Position numbers and translations under genes: made by a program
DNA from: a bacterium 1xD42-67
GTDB lineage: Bacteria > Bacillota > Clostridia > Oscillospirales > Oscillospiraceae
Direction of reading: 5' to 3'
Assembly (NCBI GenBank): GCA_003612335.1
Contig: RAYO01000004.1
Location: forward strand, 62,001 to 126,000
Length of the DNA: 64,000 bases
Notes under the pieces: generated by a model
The model's database searches: none
What the model was told of the DNA's origin: nothing
Seen by the model: only the letters and a program-made list of their open reading frames with translations
Shown here: piece by piece, positions 40,651 to 47,928 of the stretch
Layout: the number at the start of each line of letters is the position of its first letter
How positions within the stretch are numbered: the stretch's first letter is position 1

Positions 40651-41244
40651 ATGTTCCGTATCCGGGAGGCCATCGCAGTAGAGGGCCGGTATGATAAGAA
40701 TGTCCTGTCCCAGGTGGTGGACACCCTGATCCTGGAGACGGGGGGCTTCCAGATCTTCAAGGACCCAGAGCGCATGGCCCTGCTGGACCGGGCGGCACGG
40801 CAGCGGGGACTGATCGTCCTGACCGACTCCGACGGGGCGGGATTCGTCATCCGGAACCGGATCCGGGGCTGCGTCCCGGCCCGATATCTGAAGCACGCCT
40901 ACATCCCCGACATCTATGGCAAGGAGCACCGCAAACGAAAGGCCGGGAAGGAAGGCAAGCTGGGGGTGGAAGGGATGCTGCCCCAGGTCCTGGAGCAGGT
41001 CCTGCGCCGGGCGGGAGCCACATTTTTAGAGGAGCCCTCCCACAGTGCGCAGCCCAGGCCTCTCCTCACCAAAGCGGACCTGTTCTCTGCCGGCCTTTCC
41101 GGGGGACCAGGGAGCGCGGAGAAGCGCCAGGCCCTTTTAGCGCGGCTGGAGCTGCCCGAGCACATGTCCGCCAACGCCCTGTTGGCCGTGCTCAACGGCT
41201 GCTACAGCCGGGAGGAAGCGGAGGATATCCTTTGGAACGCATAG
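40651..41244 (+). CDS. rnmV: Ribonuclease M5
   Basis: Matures the 5S rRNA precursor together with ribosomal protein L18. 197 residues. The Toprim domain is visible: EAIAVEGRYDKNVL at the N-terminus (catalytic Glu) and VLTDSDGAGFVIRN (DxD-type metal site), then a C-terminal helical region. The ATG follows AAGGAGG. RNase M5 genes are usually next to ksgA; here the neighbours are an MBL-fold gene and an enzyme I-like gene. Confidence 0.93.
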   Translation: MFRIREAIAVEGRYDKNVLSQVVDTLILETGGFQIFKDPERMALLDRAARQRGLIVLTDSDGAGFVIRNRIRGCVPARYLKHAYIPDIYGKEHRKRKAGKEGKLGVEGMLPQVLEQVLRRAGATFLEEPSHSAQPRPLLTKADLFSAGLSGGPGSAEKRQALLARLELPEHMSANALLAVLNGCYSREEAEDILWNA

Positions 41245-41282
41245 GCCCTCCCCGATCCAACAGCCAAGCATCGGCCGCGAAA

Positions 41283-41317
41283 ACGGCTCCCCCGTGAGGG
41301 GGAGCCGTTCTATTTTA
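41283..41317. terminator. Bidirectional intrinsic terminator
   Basis: AACGGCTCCCCC/GGGGGAGCCGTT hairpin with a GTGA loop, followed by CTATTTTA on the plus strand and by TTTTCGCGG on the minus strand, between convergent rnmV and the enzyme I-like gene. Confidence 0.88.
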
Positions 41318-42071
41318 CACTGAAAACACGCCCCTTCGGCCGGCCGTTGGCCTGATAGAGCTCCCTGAGCTGGTCCAGATGCTCCCGCTCAGGGTCGATG
41401 TACACATTGCCGGTGAAGCCGTCCATCAAAGCGGGATGGCCCTCCCACCGAGAGGCGATATCCGCCTCCACGATAGCGGGGATGTGGTAGGCCCGGACCA
41501 GCATAGCGGTGTGGCTGTCCAGACTTCCCTTCCGGGTGATCAGCCCCAGCAGCCTCCGCTGATCGAAGTCCATCACCTCGCTGGGCAGGTATTCATCGGA
41601 CACCAAGATCGCGGGCTCGTCCATCAGCAGCTCCTGCCGCCCCCCCATGAGGGCCCGGAGCACCCGCTGGGAGATATCCCGGATGTCCACCGCCCGGGCC
41701 CGCATATAGGGGCTCTCCATGGCGGCGAAGGCGGCGGAGAAGCTGATCTCCGCCATCTGGACGGCGTACTCCGCTGTGGCCCCCTGGCCCTGGATCAGTC
41801 CCCGGACGGTCTCCACATAGTCGTGATCCTCCAGCAGCATCCCGTGGATGGTGAAGATGGAGGCCACACCCTCCCCCACCTGATACAGGGCTCGGGTATA
41901 GAGGGTGTTCAGCTCCAAGATGGCGGTCTGCTGGGCCCGGTGAAAGCGGTTGATCTCCTGCCGCCAGTCCCCCTGGGTATACAGCTGGACCTGAGGCACC
42001 GGACGGCGGTAGAAGTTCAGCCGGCCCACCACGATCTGCTCCATGATCGCCTTCCCCGCTACGATCTGCAT
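41310..42071 (-). CDS. Truncated PTS enzyme I-like protein (N-terminal phosphohistidine part only)
   Basis: 253 residues against ~570 for full enzyme I. Residues 1-145 resemble the HPr-binding helical domain and N-terminal part (LNTLYTRALYQVGEGVASIFTIHGMLLED), and residues 155-235 the swivelling phosphohistidine domain with H187 in SLDSHTAMLVRAYHIPAIV. The PEP-binding TIM barrel and dimerisation domain are absent. The ATG at 42071 was chosen because the -10 of its promoter lies upstream, inside the longer frame. The PEP donor and partner are unknown; an HPr-like protein is encoded at 49358. Confidence 0.85.
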   Translation of the reverse strand: MQIVAGKAIMEQIVVGRLNFYRRPVPQVQLYTQGDWRQEINRFHRAQQTAILELNTLYTRALYQVGEGVASIFTIHGMLLEDHDYVETVRGLIQGQGATAEYAVQMAEISFSAAFAAMESPYMRARAVDIRDISQRVLRALMGGRQELLMDEPAILVSDEYLPSEVMDFDQRRLLGLITRKGSLDSHTAMLVRAYHIPAIVEADIASRWEGHPALMDGFTGNVYIDPEREHLDQLRELYQANGRPKGRVFSVK

Positions 42072-42146: not shown

Positions 42147-42175
42147 ATTATAGTCCCTCATTTCCCGTTTGTAAA
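42147..42175 (-). promoter_or_regulatory. Promoter of the enzyme I-like gene
   Basis: Minus strand: TTTACA (42170-42175), 17-bp spacer, TATAAT (42147-42152). It rules out starts upstream of about 42140. Confidence 0.82.
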
Positions 42176-42304: not shown

Positions 42305-42348
42305 GTGTTGTATCCGATCTCATCGATATGTTTTTAGGAGGTATCCTT

Positions 42349-43530
42349 ATGGTCTCTGAACGCATGAAAGGTCTGGGCACCGCCCGGTCCGTGATCCGGG
42401 AGCTCTTCGAGTATGGCAACGCCCGTGCCGCCCAGATCGGCAGAGAGAACGTCTTCGACTTCTCTCTGGGCAATCCCAGCGTCCCCTCCCCTGCCGCTGT
42501 CAATGAAACGGCCATCCGCCTGCTCCAAGAGCAGCCCGACCAGATCCACGCCTACACCAGCGCACCGGGCGCCGCCGACGCCCGCCAGCGCTTTGCCAGC
42601 TCTCTGGATCGCAGGTTCGGCGCCAACTGCACCGCCGACCGCCTCTACCTCACCGTGGGGGCCGCCGCCTCTCTGTGCTGTGTGTTCAACGGCCTGACCT
42701 GCCCCGGCGACGAGTTCATCGTCTTCGCCCCCTACTTCCCCGAGTATAAGGTCTTCATCGAGGGGGCCGGGGCCAAGATGGTCCTGATCCCTCCGGAGAT
42801 CCAGGGCTTCCAGATCGACTTCGACGCTTTCGAGGGGGCGGTCAGCGAACATACCAAAGGGGTGGTCATCAACACCCCCAACAACCCCTCCGGCGTGGTG
42901 TATTCCAAGGCCACTCTGGAGCGTCTGGCCCAGATCCTCACCGAGAAGAGCGCAGCCTACGGCCACCCCATCTACCTGATCTCCGACGAGCCCTACCGCG
43001 AGGTGGTCTATACCGGCGTGGAGGTCCCATGGGTCCCCCACCTCTACCGGGACACCATCGTGTGCTACTCCTTCTCCAAGTCCCTCTCCCTCCCTGGCGA
43101 GCGCCTCGGCTACATCCTGGTGCCCCAGGATGTGACAGAGGGGGACGACGTCTATGCTGCGGTGTCCGGCGCGGGCCGTTCCCTGGGCTATGTCTGCGCC
43201 CCCAGCCTGTTCCAGCAGGTCACCTCCCTGTGCTGTGACCTCACCTCCGACATCCAGGTCTATGAGACCAACCGGGATCTGCTGGTGTCCTCTCTGCGGG
43301 AGATGGGCTACCACGTGGTGGAGCCCGGCGGGGCCTTCTACCTCTTCCCCCGCAGCCTGGAGCCCGACGATGTGGCTTTCAGCGAGCGGGCCAAGCAGTT
43401 CGAGCTGCTCCTTGTCCCCGGGACCGGCTTCGGCGCCCCCGGCCACGTGCGCATCTCCTACTGCGTCCAGACCGATATGATCCGCCGCTCTCTGCCCAAG
43501 TTCAAAGCCCTGGCCGACTCCTACAAATAG
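42349..43530 (+). CDS. PLP-dependent class I/II aminotransferase
   Basis: 393 residues of fold-type I, aspartate aminotransferase-like. The substrate-side NTPNNPSGVVY, the aspartate-tyrosine segment YLISDEPYREVVY and the PLP lysine in CYSFSKSLSLPGERLGYI are all visible. The amino-donor and keto-acid specificity is not deducible. The ATG at 42349 follows TAGGAGG by 7 nt; the ATG seven codons earlier lies upstream of that site. Confidence 0.92.
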   Translation: MVSERMKGLGTARSVIRELFEYGNARAAQIGRENVFDFSLGNPSVPSPAAVNETAIRLLQEQPDQIHAYTSAPGAADARQRFASSLDRRFGANCTADRLYLTVGAAASLCCVFNGLTCPGDEFIVFAPYFPEYKVFIEGAGAKMVLIPPEIQGFQIDFDAFEGAVSEHTKGVVINTPNNPSGVVYSKATLERLAQILTEKSAAYGHPIYLISDEPYREVVYTGVEVPWVPHLYRDTIVCYSFSKSLSLPGERLGYILVPQDVTEGDDVYAAVSGAGRSLGYVCAPSLFQQVTSLCCDLTSDIQVYETNRDLLVSSLREMGYHVVEPGGAFYLFPRSLEPDDVAFSERAKQFELLLVPGTGFGAPGHVRISYCVQTDMIRRSLPKFKALADSYK

Positions 43531-43590: not shown

Positions 43591-44346
43591 TTGTACTGCA
43601 AATTCTGCGGCCAAAAGCTCCCCGACGGGAGCCGCTTCTGCGGCAGATGCGGCAGGCCCACAGAGGGGCCCGTCTCGATGGGCAGCGCCCGGGCCCCCCG
43701 GCCGGCCCTCACCGGCTACGCGGGCATGTGGCCCGCCCTCATCGCCGGCCTGGCCATCGCCGCCTTCCTGCTCTACCTGATGAGCGCTGTCACCGTGGAG
43801 TCCTTCGTTGGGGAACAGACCTACCACCTGGTGTTCTCCGATTCCTGGCCCCCCATCCTGAGAGAGAGCAGCGAAAAGGCGGAAGCCTTCAAGACCTTCA
43901 CCCTGCCCGTCATCGCCGTGATGCTGGCCATGGTGATCGCGGGGGCGGTCAAGCGCCAAAAGCCCTACTGCTTCTGGGGGTCCCTCATGGGGCTCTATGC
44001 CTTCACTGCCGTCGTCATGATGGTGACGGGCCCGCTCCAGGAGGAAAAGGGGCTGTATGAGGTGAAGGGACAGCCGATGGCGATGACTCTCTCCATACTG
44101 GCCTTCCTCGCTCTGCTGATCCTCTCCATCTTCTCCCCCAGGGGGATCCGGCCCCTCTCCAGAGGGTGGCTCCTCCCCACCGCCGTCTTTGCCGCTGTGA
44201 CGGCGGTCTTCGGCCAGATCAGCGGCTCGGCCTACAGCGGCGGCTCCCCTATGTTCCTCCACTCGATCCGCACAGAAAGGGCCCGCCTGTCGGCAATGCC
44301 AGCGGGCGGGCCCTTTCCTTATCTCGTCATTCCTCGATGTAGCTGA
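43591..44346 (+). CDS. Zinc-ribbon membrane protein
   Basis: 251 residues starting at a TTG behind AAAGGGAGG. An N-terminal zinc ribbon (CKFCGQKLPDGSRFCGRCG) is followed by five hydrophobic segments between residues ~50 and ~220. The role is unknown. The last ~22 codons run through the hydABC terminator hairpin and overlap the end of hydA on the other strand by 20 bp, so the natural C-terminus may be a late frameshift or read-through product. Confidence 0.7.
   Translation: MYCKFCGQKLPDGSRFCGRCGRPTEGPVSMGSARAPRPALTGYAGMWPALIAGLAIAAFLLYLMSAVTVESFVGEQTYHLVFSDSWPPILRESSEKAEAFKTFTLPVIAVMLAMVIAGAVKRQKPYCFWGSLMGLYAFTAVVMMVTGPLQEEKGLYEVKGQPMAMTLSILAFLALLILSIFSPRGIRPLSRGWLLPTAVFAAVTAVFGQISGSAYSGGSPMFLHSIRTERARLSAMPAGGPFPYLVIPRCS
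44276..44316. terminator. Terminator of hydABC
   Basis: 12-bp stem AAAGGGCCCGCC/GGCGGGCCCTTT immediately downstream of hydA on the minus strand, also inside the end of the plus-strand 43591 frame. Confidence 0.7.
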
Positions 44347-46024
44347 CATGGAGCAGCGCATGGCGCTCCTCATGGTCCATCTCCTTGAGGAAGGCGCCCA
44401 CCACCGGGTTGCGCTCCGCTCGTTTGAAGGGGGCGGCGCGGTCCAGGGCGTAGAGGCCCTCGGCCCGGGCCTTCTTGTCCTGCTTCATACCGTGGGGCTG
44501 GCCGGCGCCGCCCACGCACCCGCCCTGGCAGGTCATGACCTCCACCAGGTCGAAGTAGGCGTTGCCCGCCTCGATCTCCTTCAGGAGTTTTTGGGCGTTG
44601 GCCAGCCCGTGGACGATGGCCAGATGGACGTCCCGCTCCCCCACCTTGATCACGGCCACCCGGATGGCCTTGTTGCCCCGGAGGGGGGAGAAGCGCAGCT
44701 CCCGCAGAGCGTTCTTGGATTTGTCGGGCAGGCAGTGGCGGACCACCGCCTCAGCCACGCCGCCGGTGGTGCCGTAGATGACCCCTGCGCCGGAGCCCAG
44801 GCCGAAGGGCAGATCGGGAGACTCCAGCTCGATCTGGGGCAGCTGGATGCCGGATTCCTTGATCATGTTGATCACTTCCTGGGTGGTGAGCACCAGGTCC
44901 ACGTCCCGCTGTCCATCATGGGCGAACTGGGGCCGGGCGGCCTCCATCTTCTTGGCGGTGCAGGGCATGATGGCGATGTGGTAAGTGGTGCGGCCGTCCT
45001 CCTCATCCAGCTTGCGGTAGCGGTCCTTCAGCAGAGAGGCGAACATCTGCATGGGGGACTTGCAGGTGGAGATGTGCTTGAGGTATTTTGGATCCTCGTT
45101 CTCCAGGTACTTCACCCAGGCGGGGCAGCAGGAGGTGAACATGGGGAAGGGCCCTCCCCGCTCCAACCGCTGGAGGAACTCCTCCGACTCCTCGATGGTC
45201 GTGAAGTCTGCGCCGAAGGTGGTGTCGTAGACCTCGTCCACCCCCATCAGCTTCAGGGCGGTGACCAGCTGATCCAGGGTGTTCTGGCCCGCAGGCAGGC
45301 CGAAAGCCTCGCCGATGGCCACCCGGACGGCGGGAGCGATCTGGACCACCACCCGCTTTTTGGGGTCGTGGATGGCCCGCCAGGCCCGGCCGATCTCGTT
45401 GTAGACGGTGATCGCGCCGGTGGGACACACGGCGGAGCACTGTCCGCAGCTGATGCAGTGGGTCTCGCTCAGCTTCCGGTCGAAAGCGGGTGCCACCCGC
45501 ATATTGTAGCCTCTGTTGACGAAATCGATGATCCCCATGCCGATCCCCTCACCGCACACCCGGACGCAGTCGCCGCAGAGGATGCACTTGCTGGGGTCCC
45601 GGACGATGGCGGGGCTGGAGGCATCCAGGACGGATTCCTCCCGGCTGTCGCCGAACCGGACCTTCCGCACGCCGAAGCGCATGGCCAGCTCCTGGAGGTG
45701 ACAGTCGCCGCTCTTCTCACAGGTGGTGCAGGAGCAGTTGTGGGAGGCCAGCATCAGCTCCAAGATCATCCGCCGGTGCTTGAGCAGCCGGGCGGTGTTG
45801 GTCCTGATCCTCAGCCCATCCCGGGGCTGCATGGAGCAGGAGGTCTCGATCTTCCCCCTCTCATCCTCTACCACGCACATGCGGCAGGCGCCGTAGACCG
45901 AAAGGTCGGAGTAATAGCAGAAGGTGGGCATCTCGATGCCGGCCTTCTGGATCACGGACAGCACGTTGGGCTCCCCGTCGAAGGCCACCCTCTGCCCGTC
46001 TATGAACATGATCCCCTTTGCCAT
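44327..46024 (-). CDS. hydA: [FeFe] hydrogenase catalytic subunit
   Basis: 565 residues, cytosolic, catalysing proton reduction or H2 oxidation. Domains in order: a [2Fe-2S] domain (C36, C47, C50, C63), a His-ligated cluster (H95, C99, C102, C108), two [4Fe-4S] clusters (C147/150/153 and C157; C190/193/196 and C200) and the H-cluster motifs TSCCPAW (C299/C300), MPCTAKKME (C355) and EVMTCQGGCVGG (C499, C503). The arrangement matches subunit A of the NAD-linked, possibly electron-bifurcating type. The ATG at 46024 lies 5 bp after the hydB stop. Maturases HydE/F/G are not in the window. Confidence 0.95.
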   Translation of the reverse strand: MAKGIMFIDGQRVAFDGEPNVLSVIQKAGIEMPTFCYYSDLSVYGACRMCVVEDERGKIETSCSMQPRDGLRIRTNTARLLKHRRMILELMLASHNCSCTTCEKSGDCHLQELAMRFGVRKVRFGDSREESVLDASSPAIVRDPSKCILCGDCVRVCGEGIGMGIIDFVNRGYNMRVAPAFDRKLSETHCISCGQCSAVCPTGAITVYNEIGRAWRAIHDPKKRVVVQIAPAVRVAIGEAFGLPAGQNTLDQLVTALKLMGVDEVYDTTFGADFTTIEESEEFLQRLERGGPFPMFTSCCPAWVKYLENEDPKYLKHISTCKSPMQMFASLLKDRYRKLDEEDGRTTYHIAIMPCTAKKMEAARPQFAHDGQRDVDLVLTTQEVINMIKESGIQLPQIELESPDLPFGLGSGAGVIYGTTGGVAEAVVRHCLPDKSKNALRELRFSPLRGNKAIRVAVIKVGERDVHLAIVHGLANAQKLLKEIEAGNAYFDLVEVMTCQGGCVGGAGQPHGMKQDKKARAEGLYALDRAAPFKRAERNPVVGAFLKEMDHEERHALLHVSYIEE

Positions 46025-46029
46025 ACCGC

Positions 46030-47928
46030 TCACTCCTCCCGAATGGCGCCGAAGGGACAGCAGCCCCAGCACGCGCCGCACTTGATACATTTCTCTGTGT
46101 CGATGACATGGGGCATCCGGATCTGCCCGGTGATGGCCTCCATGGGACACTGCTTCATGCACTTGCCGCAGCCCTTGCACAGCTCCGGATCGATCTGGAG
46201 CACCTTTTTCCGGCCGTTGCAGTGGGGGCAGTGCTTGTCCACCACATGGGCCAGGTACTCATCTCTAAAATACTTCAAGGTGCTCTGCACCGGCTTGCAG
46301 GCGCTCTGGCCCAGGCCGCACAGGGCGGTCTCGCTGATGGTGGCGGACAGCTCCTCCAGCAGGTCCAGATCCTCCAGAGAGCCCTCGTTGTTGACGATGC
46401 GGGTGAGGATCTCCAGCATCCGTCGGGTGCCCTCCCGGCAGGGGACGCACTTGCCGCAGGACTCGTTCTGGGTAAAGTTCATGAAGAACCGGGCCACCTC
46501 TACCATGCAGGTGTCCTCGTCCATGACCACCAGACCGCCGGAGCCGATCATGGCCCCCAGCTTTTTCAGAGAGTCGAAGTCCAGGGGCATATCCAGATGT
46601 TCCTCGGTGAGACAGCCGCCGGAGGGACCTCCGATCTGGACGGCCTTGAACTGTTTGCCGTCTTTGATGCCGCCGCCGATATCGAAGATGATCTCCCGCA
46701 GGGTGGCCCCCATGGGGACCTCGATCAGGCCGGTGTTCACCACGTTGCCCGTCAGGGCGAAGGCCTTGGTCCCCGGAGACTTCTCCGTCCCGATGGACTT
46801 GAACCAAGCCGAGCCCTTGCGGACGATGAGGGGGACAGCGGAGAAGGTCTCCACGTTGTTGAGCACCGTGGGCTGGGCCCACAGGCCGTGCTCCACCGTC
46901 CGGGGAGGCTTCACCCGAGGCATGCCCCGGTTGCCCTCGATGGAGGCGGTGAGGGCGGAGCCCTCGCCGCAGACGAAGGCGCCGGCGCCCCGGTTCACAT
47001 GGAGGTGGAAGGAGAAATCGGTGCCCAGGATGTGGTCGCCCAGCAGATCCAGCTCCTCCGCCTTGGCGATGGCGGTCTTCAGCCGGGCCACCGCCAGGGG
47101 GTACTCCGCCCGGACGTAGATATAGCCCTCGTCGCTCCCGGCGGCCAGGGCGGCGATCAGCATCCCCTCGATGATGGAGTGGGGGTTGCCCTCCATGATG
47201 GACCGGTCCATGAAGGCGCCGGGATCCCCCTCGTCGCCGTTGCACACCACATACTTCTTGCCCTTAGGCTGCTTGCGTACGCTGTCCCACTTGCGTCCGG
47301 CAGGGAAGCCGCCGCCGCCGCGCCCGCGCAGGCCGGAGTCCAGGATCTCCTTGCAGATGGCCTCGTCGGTCATCTCGAACAGGGCCTTCTCGAAGGCCAC
47401 ATAGCCGTCCTTGGCCAGATACTCGTCCACATCCTCGGCGTCGATGGTGCCGCAGTTCTCCAGCACGATCCGGTGCTGGCGGTGGTAGAAGGGGATCTCG
47501 CTGTGCTTGGTGTATTTCATCCCGTCCAGCTCATAGAGCAGCCGCTCCACCACCTCGCCTTTGAGGATGGTCTTCTCGATGATCTCGTCGCAGTCCTCCA
47601 GCTGGACATGGGTGTAGAGGATCCCCTCCGGCTCGATCTGGACCAGGGGGCCCATCTCACAGAAACCGTGGCAGCCGCTCTTTTTCAGATAGACTCCGTC
47701 TCCCTTGGGCTCGGTGACATCCTCGGTCTCCTCCTCCTGGGCCAGCCCCACATAGACGTCCAGCCCCCGGCGGGCGCACTCCTCCTTGAAGTAGTCATAC
47801 AGTTTCAGCGCGCCGCCGGCGATACAGCCGGTGCCGGCGCACAGCAGGATCTGCCGCTTCTGATAGGACAGGGCCCGCTTGGCCTTCACCCGCCGGACCC
47901 CCAGCCGTTCACGATTCATCTCAGGCAT
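46030..47928 (-). CDS. hydB: NADH-binding flavoprotein subunit of the hydrogenase (NuoF-like)
   Basis: 632 residues. N-terminal thioredoxin-like [2Fe-2S] domain (CAGTGC... CHGFC), then the NuoF-type FMN/NAD site (GRGGGGFPAGRKW, NGDEGDPGAFMD), the [4Fe-4S] motif ESCGKCVPCREG and a C-terminal 2x[4Fe-4S] ferredoxin domain (CKGCGKCMKQCP, CIKCGACWGCCP). It oxidises or reduces NAD(H) for HydA. The ATG at 47928 was preferred over neighbours because AGGAGG sits ~10 nt upstream; it overlaps hydC by 8 bp. Confidence 0.94.
   Translation of the reverse strand: MPEMNRERLGVRRVKAKRALSYQKRQILLCAGTGCIAGGALKLYDYFKEECARRGLDVYVGLAQEEETEDVTEPKGDGVYLKKSGCHGFCEMGPLVQIEPEGILYTHVQLEDCDEIIEKTILKGEVVERLLYELDGMKYTKHSEIPFYHRQHRIVLENCGTIDAEDVDEYLAKDGYVAFEKALFEMTDEAICKEILDSGLRGRGGGGFPAGRKWDSVRKQPKGKKYVVCNGDEGDPGAFMDRSIMEGNPHSIIEGMLIAALAAGSDEGYIYVRAEYPLAVARLKTAIAKAEELDLLGDHILGTDFSFHLHVNRGAGAFVCGEGSALTASIEGNRGMPRVKPPRTVEHGLWAQPTVLNNVETFSAVPLIVRKGSAWFKSIGTEKSPGTKAFALTGNVVNTGLIEVPMGATLREIIFDIGGGIKDGKQFKAVQIGGPSGGCLTEEHLDMPLDFDSLKKLGAMIGSGGLVVMDEDTCMVEVARFFMNFTQNESCGKCVPCREGTRRMLEILTRIVNNEGSLEDLDLLEELSATISETALCGLGQSACKPVQSTLKYFRDEYLAHVVDKHCPHCNGRKKVLQIDPELCKGCGKCMKQCPMEAITGQIRMPHVIDTEKCIKCGACWGCCPFGAIREE

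Follow-up and report, generated by a model that had tools for sequence, protein, structure and literature searches.

A free-standing, barrel-less half of Enzyme I conserved across a bacterial genus, a candidate PEP-independent side branch of the phosphotransferase system

Introduction

A gene that encodes only the N-terminal half of Enzyme I (EI) of the phosphotransferase system (PTS) raises the question of whether the cell has reduced its Enzyme I, whether a broken copy is decaying, or whether the half has a use of its own. Such a gene, here called EI-N, lies in the window analyzed, a stretch of 64,000 nucleotides from the bacterium 1xD42-67 (Table 1). A sequence-only reading of the window had presented it as the Enzyme I of the PTS reduced to its phosphohistidine half. 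The gene is considered below together with the rest of the genome, its relatives and the known proteins that it resembles.

Gene, protein and neighborhood

A Pfam scan, run on the 283-residue open frame of EI-N rather than on the 253-residue form, matched just two domains at E <= 1, helical PF05524 (4.2e-23) and phosphohistidine PF00391 (1.1e-13); the PEP-binding barrel PF02896 is absent. His187 sits in the stretch GSLDSHTAML. The frame, the domain matches and the alignment thus confirm the sequence-only description of a 253-residue helical and phosphohistidine half, with H187 in a DSHTAM motif and no barrel. The frame is open further upstream, as far as 42161, and the start is most likely the ATG at 42071, since the -10 hexamer of the promoter falls inside the longer extension and the full Enzyme I begins at the aligned Met. 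The NCBIfam model PTS_I_fam aligns to EI-N over positions 2-243 of its 565 but stays under the cut-off, and with the curated whole-protein Enzyme I model TIGR01417 EI-N reaches 139 of the 341.7 bits required. An AlphaFold2 model built from a 50-row alignment has a mean pLDDT of 90.7, with low confidence only near the C-terminus. Its best structure matches are full EIs and N-terminal EI halves, among them 1zym (TM 0.72-0.75) and EIN-Ntr bound to NPr (5t1o, TM 0.77). With the barrel missing, autophosphorylation from PEP is not expected of EI-N and appears unlikely.

Table 1. Features of the EI-N locus, in window coordinates
Feature	Position	Strand	Basis
Stand-alone EI N-terminal half (EI-N), 253 aa	41310..42071	-	ORF, domain matches, AlphaFold2 fold
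DSHTAM motif, residues 185-190, phospho-acceptor His187	41502..41519	-	alignment; His in 52/52 stand-alone and 41/41 full EI rows
Putative sigma-A-type promoter of EI-N, TTTACA-17-TATAAT	42147..42175	-	sequence scan, 11/12 consensus matches
Terminator-like hairpin between convergent EI-N and ribonuclease M5-like genes	41282..41309	.	scan
Divergent PLP-dependent aminotransferase (PRK06836), conserved neighbor	42328..43530	+	domain scan, synteny
Ribonuclease M5-like gene, DUF4093 C-terminus, convergent with EI-N	40651..41244	+
[FeFe] hydrogenase group A-like protein	44327..46180	-	TIGR02512 above cut-off

The strong promoter of its own that had been attributed to EI-N was found again, in a scan that returned two promoter-like sites for the region (both strands summed) against 0.5 expected. 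The -35 hexamer TTTACA and a -10-like hexamer recur upstream of EI-N in 36 of 37 rows, while the rest of the spacer is largely variable; the rows counted are those where a motif placed the start of the aminotransferase within 700 bp, and the window's own gene is counted twice among them. The terminator scan yielded one site for the region, with 0.9 expected by chance. The hairpin was called on the + strand only, and the T run on the - strand was read by eye.

The stop of the convergent ribonuclease M5-like gene, which scores 62.6 of the 110.65 bits required by TIGR00334, lies 65 bp past the stop of EI-N at 41310. The absence of a frameshifted C-terminal half nearby, as had been observed from the letters, is upheld: this gene, and not a barrel, follows EI-N, and PF02896 matches only elsewhere. 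A frameshift with an adjoining C-terminal half is therefore excluded.

On the other side, 27 of 28 loci from public contigs have the divergent aminotransferase upstream of EI-N, the exception (L072) being one where the contig start is too near. The gap between the two genes reaches 1.4 kb in L093 and 2.2 kb in L095. It is also the neighbor in 18 of 21 additional loci, being missing in L100, L112 and L113; the two synteny sets share some genomes. In L114-L116 the aminotransferase is still 70-74% identical, with EI-N down to 32-39%. A gene for the [FeFe] hydrogenase group A-like protein occurs near the aminotransferase in 8 of the 28 public-contig loci.

Full Enzyme I and the remaining PTS

The assembly profiled comprises 3.56 Mb in 120 contigs and is 98% complete. 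PF05524 is found in it at only two places, EI-N and an intact ptsI of 544 aa that has all three Pfam domains, with ptsH in front of it (C33:128795-130429). The ptsH-ptsI pair lies 2.5-4.4 kb past the window, which stops at C33:126000, and for this reason the sequence-only reading missed it. EI-N, 46% identical to this full EI over 243 residues, is therefore an extra paralogue and not the cell's Enzyme I, and the idea of a reduced Enzyme I, under which the gene had been introduced, is not supported.

That reading had also proposed a genome search for a full ptsI, a separate PEP-binding domain and PTS permeases. The full ptsI, together with ptsH, proved to be just beyond the window. A profile search of all contigs with PF02896 found no separate PEP-barrel gene; the model matches two places, the full ptsI and a 904-aa frame on contig C86 whose sequence looks like pyruvate phosphate dikinase, so an Enzyme I split over two genes, one of them for the barrel, is rejected for this assembly. 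Permeases are present, in two frames that match PTS_EIIC. One is a 711-aa glucose-family IICBA that adjoins a LicT-type antiterminator, with its IIA model above cut-off and the IIBC models below; the other is a 631-aa mannitol IICBA above its cut-off.

There are two HPrs in the assembly, one beside ptsI and the other on contig C46. The latter appears, by its NAKSLLG motif, to be of the Ser46 type. The usual Ser46 context, which the C46 HPr has, is missing from the HPr beside ptsI (L001 1210-1473, G000 C33; AATKLMALMGMG). A division of labor between transport and regulation is possible for the two proteins.

Distribution among relatives

In the genus surveyed, which we infer to be the Lawsonibacter/Flintibacter group, stand-alone EI-N occurs in 52 of 64 genomes, and 50 of these 52 also have a full EI, for which an open frame >400 aa was required; the shortest frames accepted are 434 and 454 aa. 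A full EI only is found in five of the 64, one of which, G170, is ambiguous, as its second copy is cut by a contig end; the remaining seven have neither. Co-occurrence of the two genes gives a Fisher p of 4e-5, from genomes that are not independent. A full EI does not need EI-N, since G199 (97% complete) has the former and lacks the latter. EI-N was seen without a full EI in G173 and G204, both of which are assemblies about 75% complete. None of the stand-alone rows of the genus has an internal stop. The relatives in public contigs (28 loci, 65-87% identity) include Lawsonibacter sp., Flintibacter muris, Pseudoflavonifractor sp. 60 and Colidextribacter sp. OB.20, and the rest are mostly uncultured bacteria.

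In a family sample of 150 genomes, 41 had an EI-like match, and no clean stand-alone EI-N was found outside the genus; two short frames there are broken or at a contig end. Free-standing status was not kept for G029, which has an internal TGA, nor for G134 and G170, whose frames lie at contig ends. A search of the phylum matched 171 of 398 genomes; the best matches listed reach about E = 3e-30, and the window's own EI-N is weaker than this (1.8e-23), so that diverged stand-alone EI-Ns could be missed. Two short frames from that search, in G534 (L179) and G575 (L180), are not stand-alone, as the rest of EI is adjacent. Both genomes are single contigs, and their Enzyme I genes in two adjacent frames may reflect either sequencing errors or real breaks. 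At another locus (L172, G176 C1:1571734-1571973), a single in-frame TAG interrupts an HPr frame that lies just upstream of the full EI of G176.

The seven EI-less genomes (G158-G164; loci L149-L153, L155 and L157) are 1.5-1.9 Mb in size. In all of them the aminotransferase is retained (80-81% identity), along with exactly one HPr, which suggests that their HPr is purely regulatory. A tblastn search of the 1.5 kb upstream of the aminotransferase found no EI-N remnant in these seven genomes; a lone weak match in the EI-less set (L144, E = 0.055) was taken as chance. Because the seven form one clade (SH-aLRT 95), the joint absence of EI and EI-N counts as one loss event. The presence of EI-N thus appears to track EI and not HPr or the aminotransferase, although G199, with EI and no EI-N, speaks against a strict tie. 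A functional link between EI-N and the aminotransferase was considered, and the persistence of the latter in all seven EI-less genomes bears on it.

Origin and selection

The tree contained 95 rows (52 stand-alone, 41 full EI and two fragments), a cut copy of the genome's own EI and L113, which is at a contig end, having been left out. The 52 stand-alone rows count distinct sequences, not genomes, and they overlap with the 52 EI-N genomes without being the same list. All 52 stand-alone rows fall on one side of a single branch (100/99; 100% of 200 bootstrap trees), which joins, with moderate support, beside the ptsI of the same genus: the split from other EIs has 95/90 and the sister grouping with the genus ptsI rows 95/59. 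The barrel would accordingly have been lost once, in an ancestor within the genus, and EI-N kept since.

Selection was gauged by dN/dS, in place of the normal-looking codons cited by the sequence-only reading; across 33 genes its median is 0.154 (range 0.036-0.578; 490 usable of 528 pairs). EI-N is under purifying selection and is not decaying, as a single clade, a dN/dS of 0.15, an invariant His and a conserved promoter together indicate, in agreement with the earlier view that it is not a decaying fragment. The missing barrel is what a non-functional remnant of a duplicated ptsI would have, and for that explanation to hold, the remnant would have to have persisted as one clade over most of the genus with its dN/dS, promoter and His intact. 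Moreover, neither the flanking sequence nor the PF02896 search revealed a downstream barrel remnant, and we regard this explanation as barely credible. The sequence-only reading had foreseen one way for its proposal to fail, namely a normal ptsI elsewhere and an unexpressed EI-N. The former exists, but EI-N is unlikely to be unexpressed in the cell, given the conserved promoter and the purifying selection.

Active site and HPr-facing surface

Residues were counted in the 52 stand-alone and 41 full EI rows and are numbered as in E. coli EI. His189, the equivalent of His187 in EI-N, is invariant in both sets (52/52 and 41/41), as are S188, G184, R126 and D129. Around it the stand-alone rows differ. 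At position 168 all 52 have V, L or I (46/4/2), whereas 39 of 41 full EIs have Thr; at position 187, 46 of 52 carry Asp and 35 of 41 full EIs Asn or Ser; I192 has become M in 42 of 52; and A194, Ala in every full EI, is V, L, I, M or S in every stand-alone row. By alignment, the clade has retained the phospho-acceptor and remodeled the pocket around it. According to PMC8295985, the Thr168 hydroxyl hydrogen-bonds unphosphorylated His189, and its replacement by V, L or I in 52/52 rows means that the His chemistry may differ. Val is also found at this position in the truncated DhaMs of E. coli, Klebsiella oxytoca and ENNIH3, and Leu in Proteus DhaM. As a marker of barrel loss the change is weakened, since the barrel-bearing DhaM of Vibrio casei has Val as well.

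Of the residues that, from the EIN:HPr structure, we presume to face HPr, the core is kept in stand-alone rows (H76, Y122, R126 and D129 in 52/52, D82 in 50/52), and the acids E74 and E68 are partly lost. Position 74 is L, A, S, N or T in 44 of 52 and position 68 is G in 26 and E in four, compared with E or D in 35 of 41 full EIs at either site. Docking of HPr may therefore be weaker, or the partner may be another.

It may be, then, that EI-N is a His-swivel protein whose donor or acceptor, a protein or a small molecule, is not HPr and is reached through the remodeled pocket. The clade-specific changes at T168, I192 and A194, the Asp at position 187 beside Ser-His, the lost interface acids and the conserved divergent aminotransferase are all compatible with this. 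However, Val at position 168 also occurs in DhaMs that bear an HPr and need not signal a new substrate, and genomes that lack EI-N still have the aminotransferase, which makes the proposal improbable. Slightly less so, though still unlikely, is a regulator that acts independently of phosphorylation, binding HPr in competition with EI or EIIA and damping PTS flux, with the His domain serving for shape. The conserved HPr-binding helical core and the co-occurrence with EI suit such a decoy, which would nevertheless need neither the phospho-acceptor His nor the preceding Ser, both invariant in 52/52.

A further route to phosphorylation would be in trans, directly by the barrel of the full EI. In PMC5537066, the isolated His subdomain of E. 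coli (in its H189A form) binds isolated EIC with PEP, and several of the EIC-contact residues given there are kept in EI-N: G178, G184 and S188 in 52/52, T190 in 47/52 and R195 in 46/52. T168, also on that contact list, has nonetheless drifted in all 52, and at S196-E198 the prevailing T-M-G/N of full EIs (32, 36 and 39 of 41) gives way to a prevailing A-Y-H in EI-N (44, 35 and 32 of 52). The barrel that would hold EI-N in place is gone, and this route is very improbable.

Proposed role

The reading that we favor, and consider probable, is that EI-N, an EI paralogue barrel-less since one loss, forms a side branch of the PTS that does not depend on PEP and in which H187 is phosphorylated by HPr~P. 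It is preferred because the genome also contains a full EI, a pair of HPrs and a pair of permeases, and because EI co-occurs in 50/52. PEP would phosphorylate the full EI, which would then phosphorylate HPr; HPr~P would dock on the helical domain of EI-N, and its phosphate would go back onto His187. EI-N~P might store the phosphate and give it back to an HPr or, alternatively, transfer it to, or regulate, a further partner. Phosphorylation by HPr~P is what we infer, and a choice between buffering of the HPr~P pool and regulation of another partner would be a guess. By analogy with isolated EIN, the relay PEP -> EI -> HPr -> EI-N should be reversible; PMC8295985 describes complete phosphorylation of isolated T. 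tengcongensis EIN when PEP was in excess and catalytic EI and HPr were present. More tentatively, EI-N may be a dedicated free phosphohistidine carrier and define a new branch, from HPr~P through EI-N to a partner beyond EI, HPr and EIIA, with its pocket fixed in the genus.

Comparison with known systems

Enzyme I is the entry point of the PTS. A free half of it that is under selection and has no PEP site implies that phosphate flows from HPr~P in reverse or along a side path; EI-N is a candidate for a part in controlling the PTS of gut commensals. Like the Enzyme I encoded by ptsI (TIGR01417), EI-N has the helical HPr-binding and phosphohistidine domains with the equivalent of His189; unlike it, EI-N lacks the PEP-binding and dimerization barrel, has changed pocket residues and forms a separate clade.

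Among barrel-less EI halves, the only counterpart known to us is the EI domain that is fused into DhaM. In E. coli this protein (IIA-HPr-truncated EI, 472 aa) similarly has the EI N-half without the barrel and Val at the T168 position. EI-N matches PRK11377 over positions 253-449 of 473, the truncated EI part of DhaM, and scores 126 bits with the NCBIfam DhaM model, for which the cut-off is 520. DhaM, however, is a fusion with IIA and HPr and lies beside dhaL and dhaK, whereas EI-N is free-standing at 253 aa, has no IIA-Man or HPr domains and is flanked by the aminotransferase and the ribonuclease M5-like gene. DhaM is described in PMC13099321 as bearing a truncated EI domain. Comas et al. (PMC2405797) give E. 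coli YcgC as having no EI domain, contrary to the E. coli K-12 DhaM/YcgC sequence, which ends in the EI N-half. No free-standing EI-N is described in the titles and abstract openings of the open-licence PMC literature searched. Truncated EI is thus already known inside DhaM, and a free-standing, genus-wide form is apparently new within that literature.

The model of EI-N also resembles the N-terminal half of EI-Ntr (PtsP) in complex with NPr (5t1o). Full-length PtsP carries a GAF domain; in EI-N, Pfam finds neither GAF nor barrel. Finally, EI-N has the same extent and fold as the isolated EIN of NMR and crystal work (1zym, 2eza and 5woy). That domain is a laboratory construct; EI-N, as a natural gene, is its counterpart in nature.
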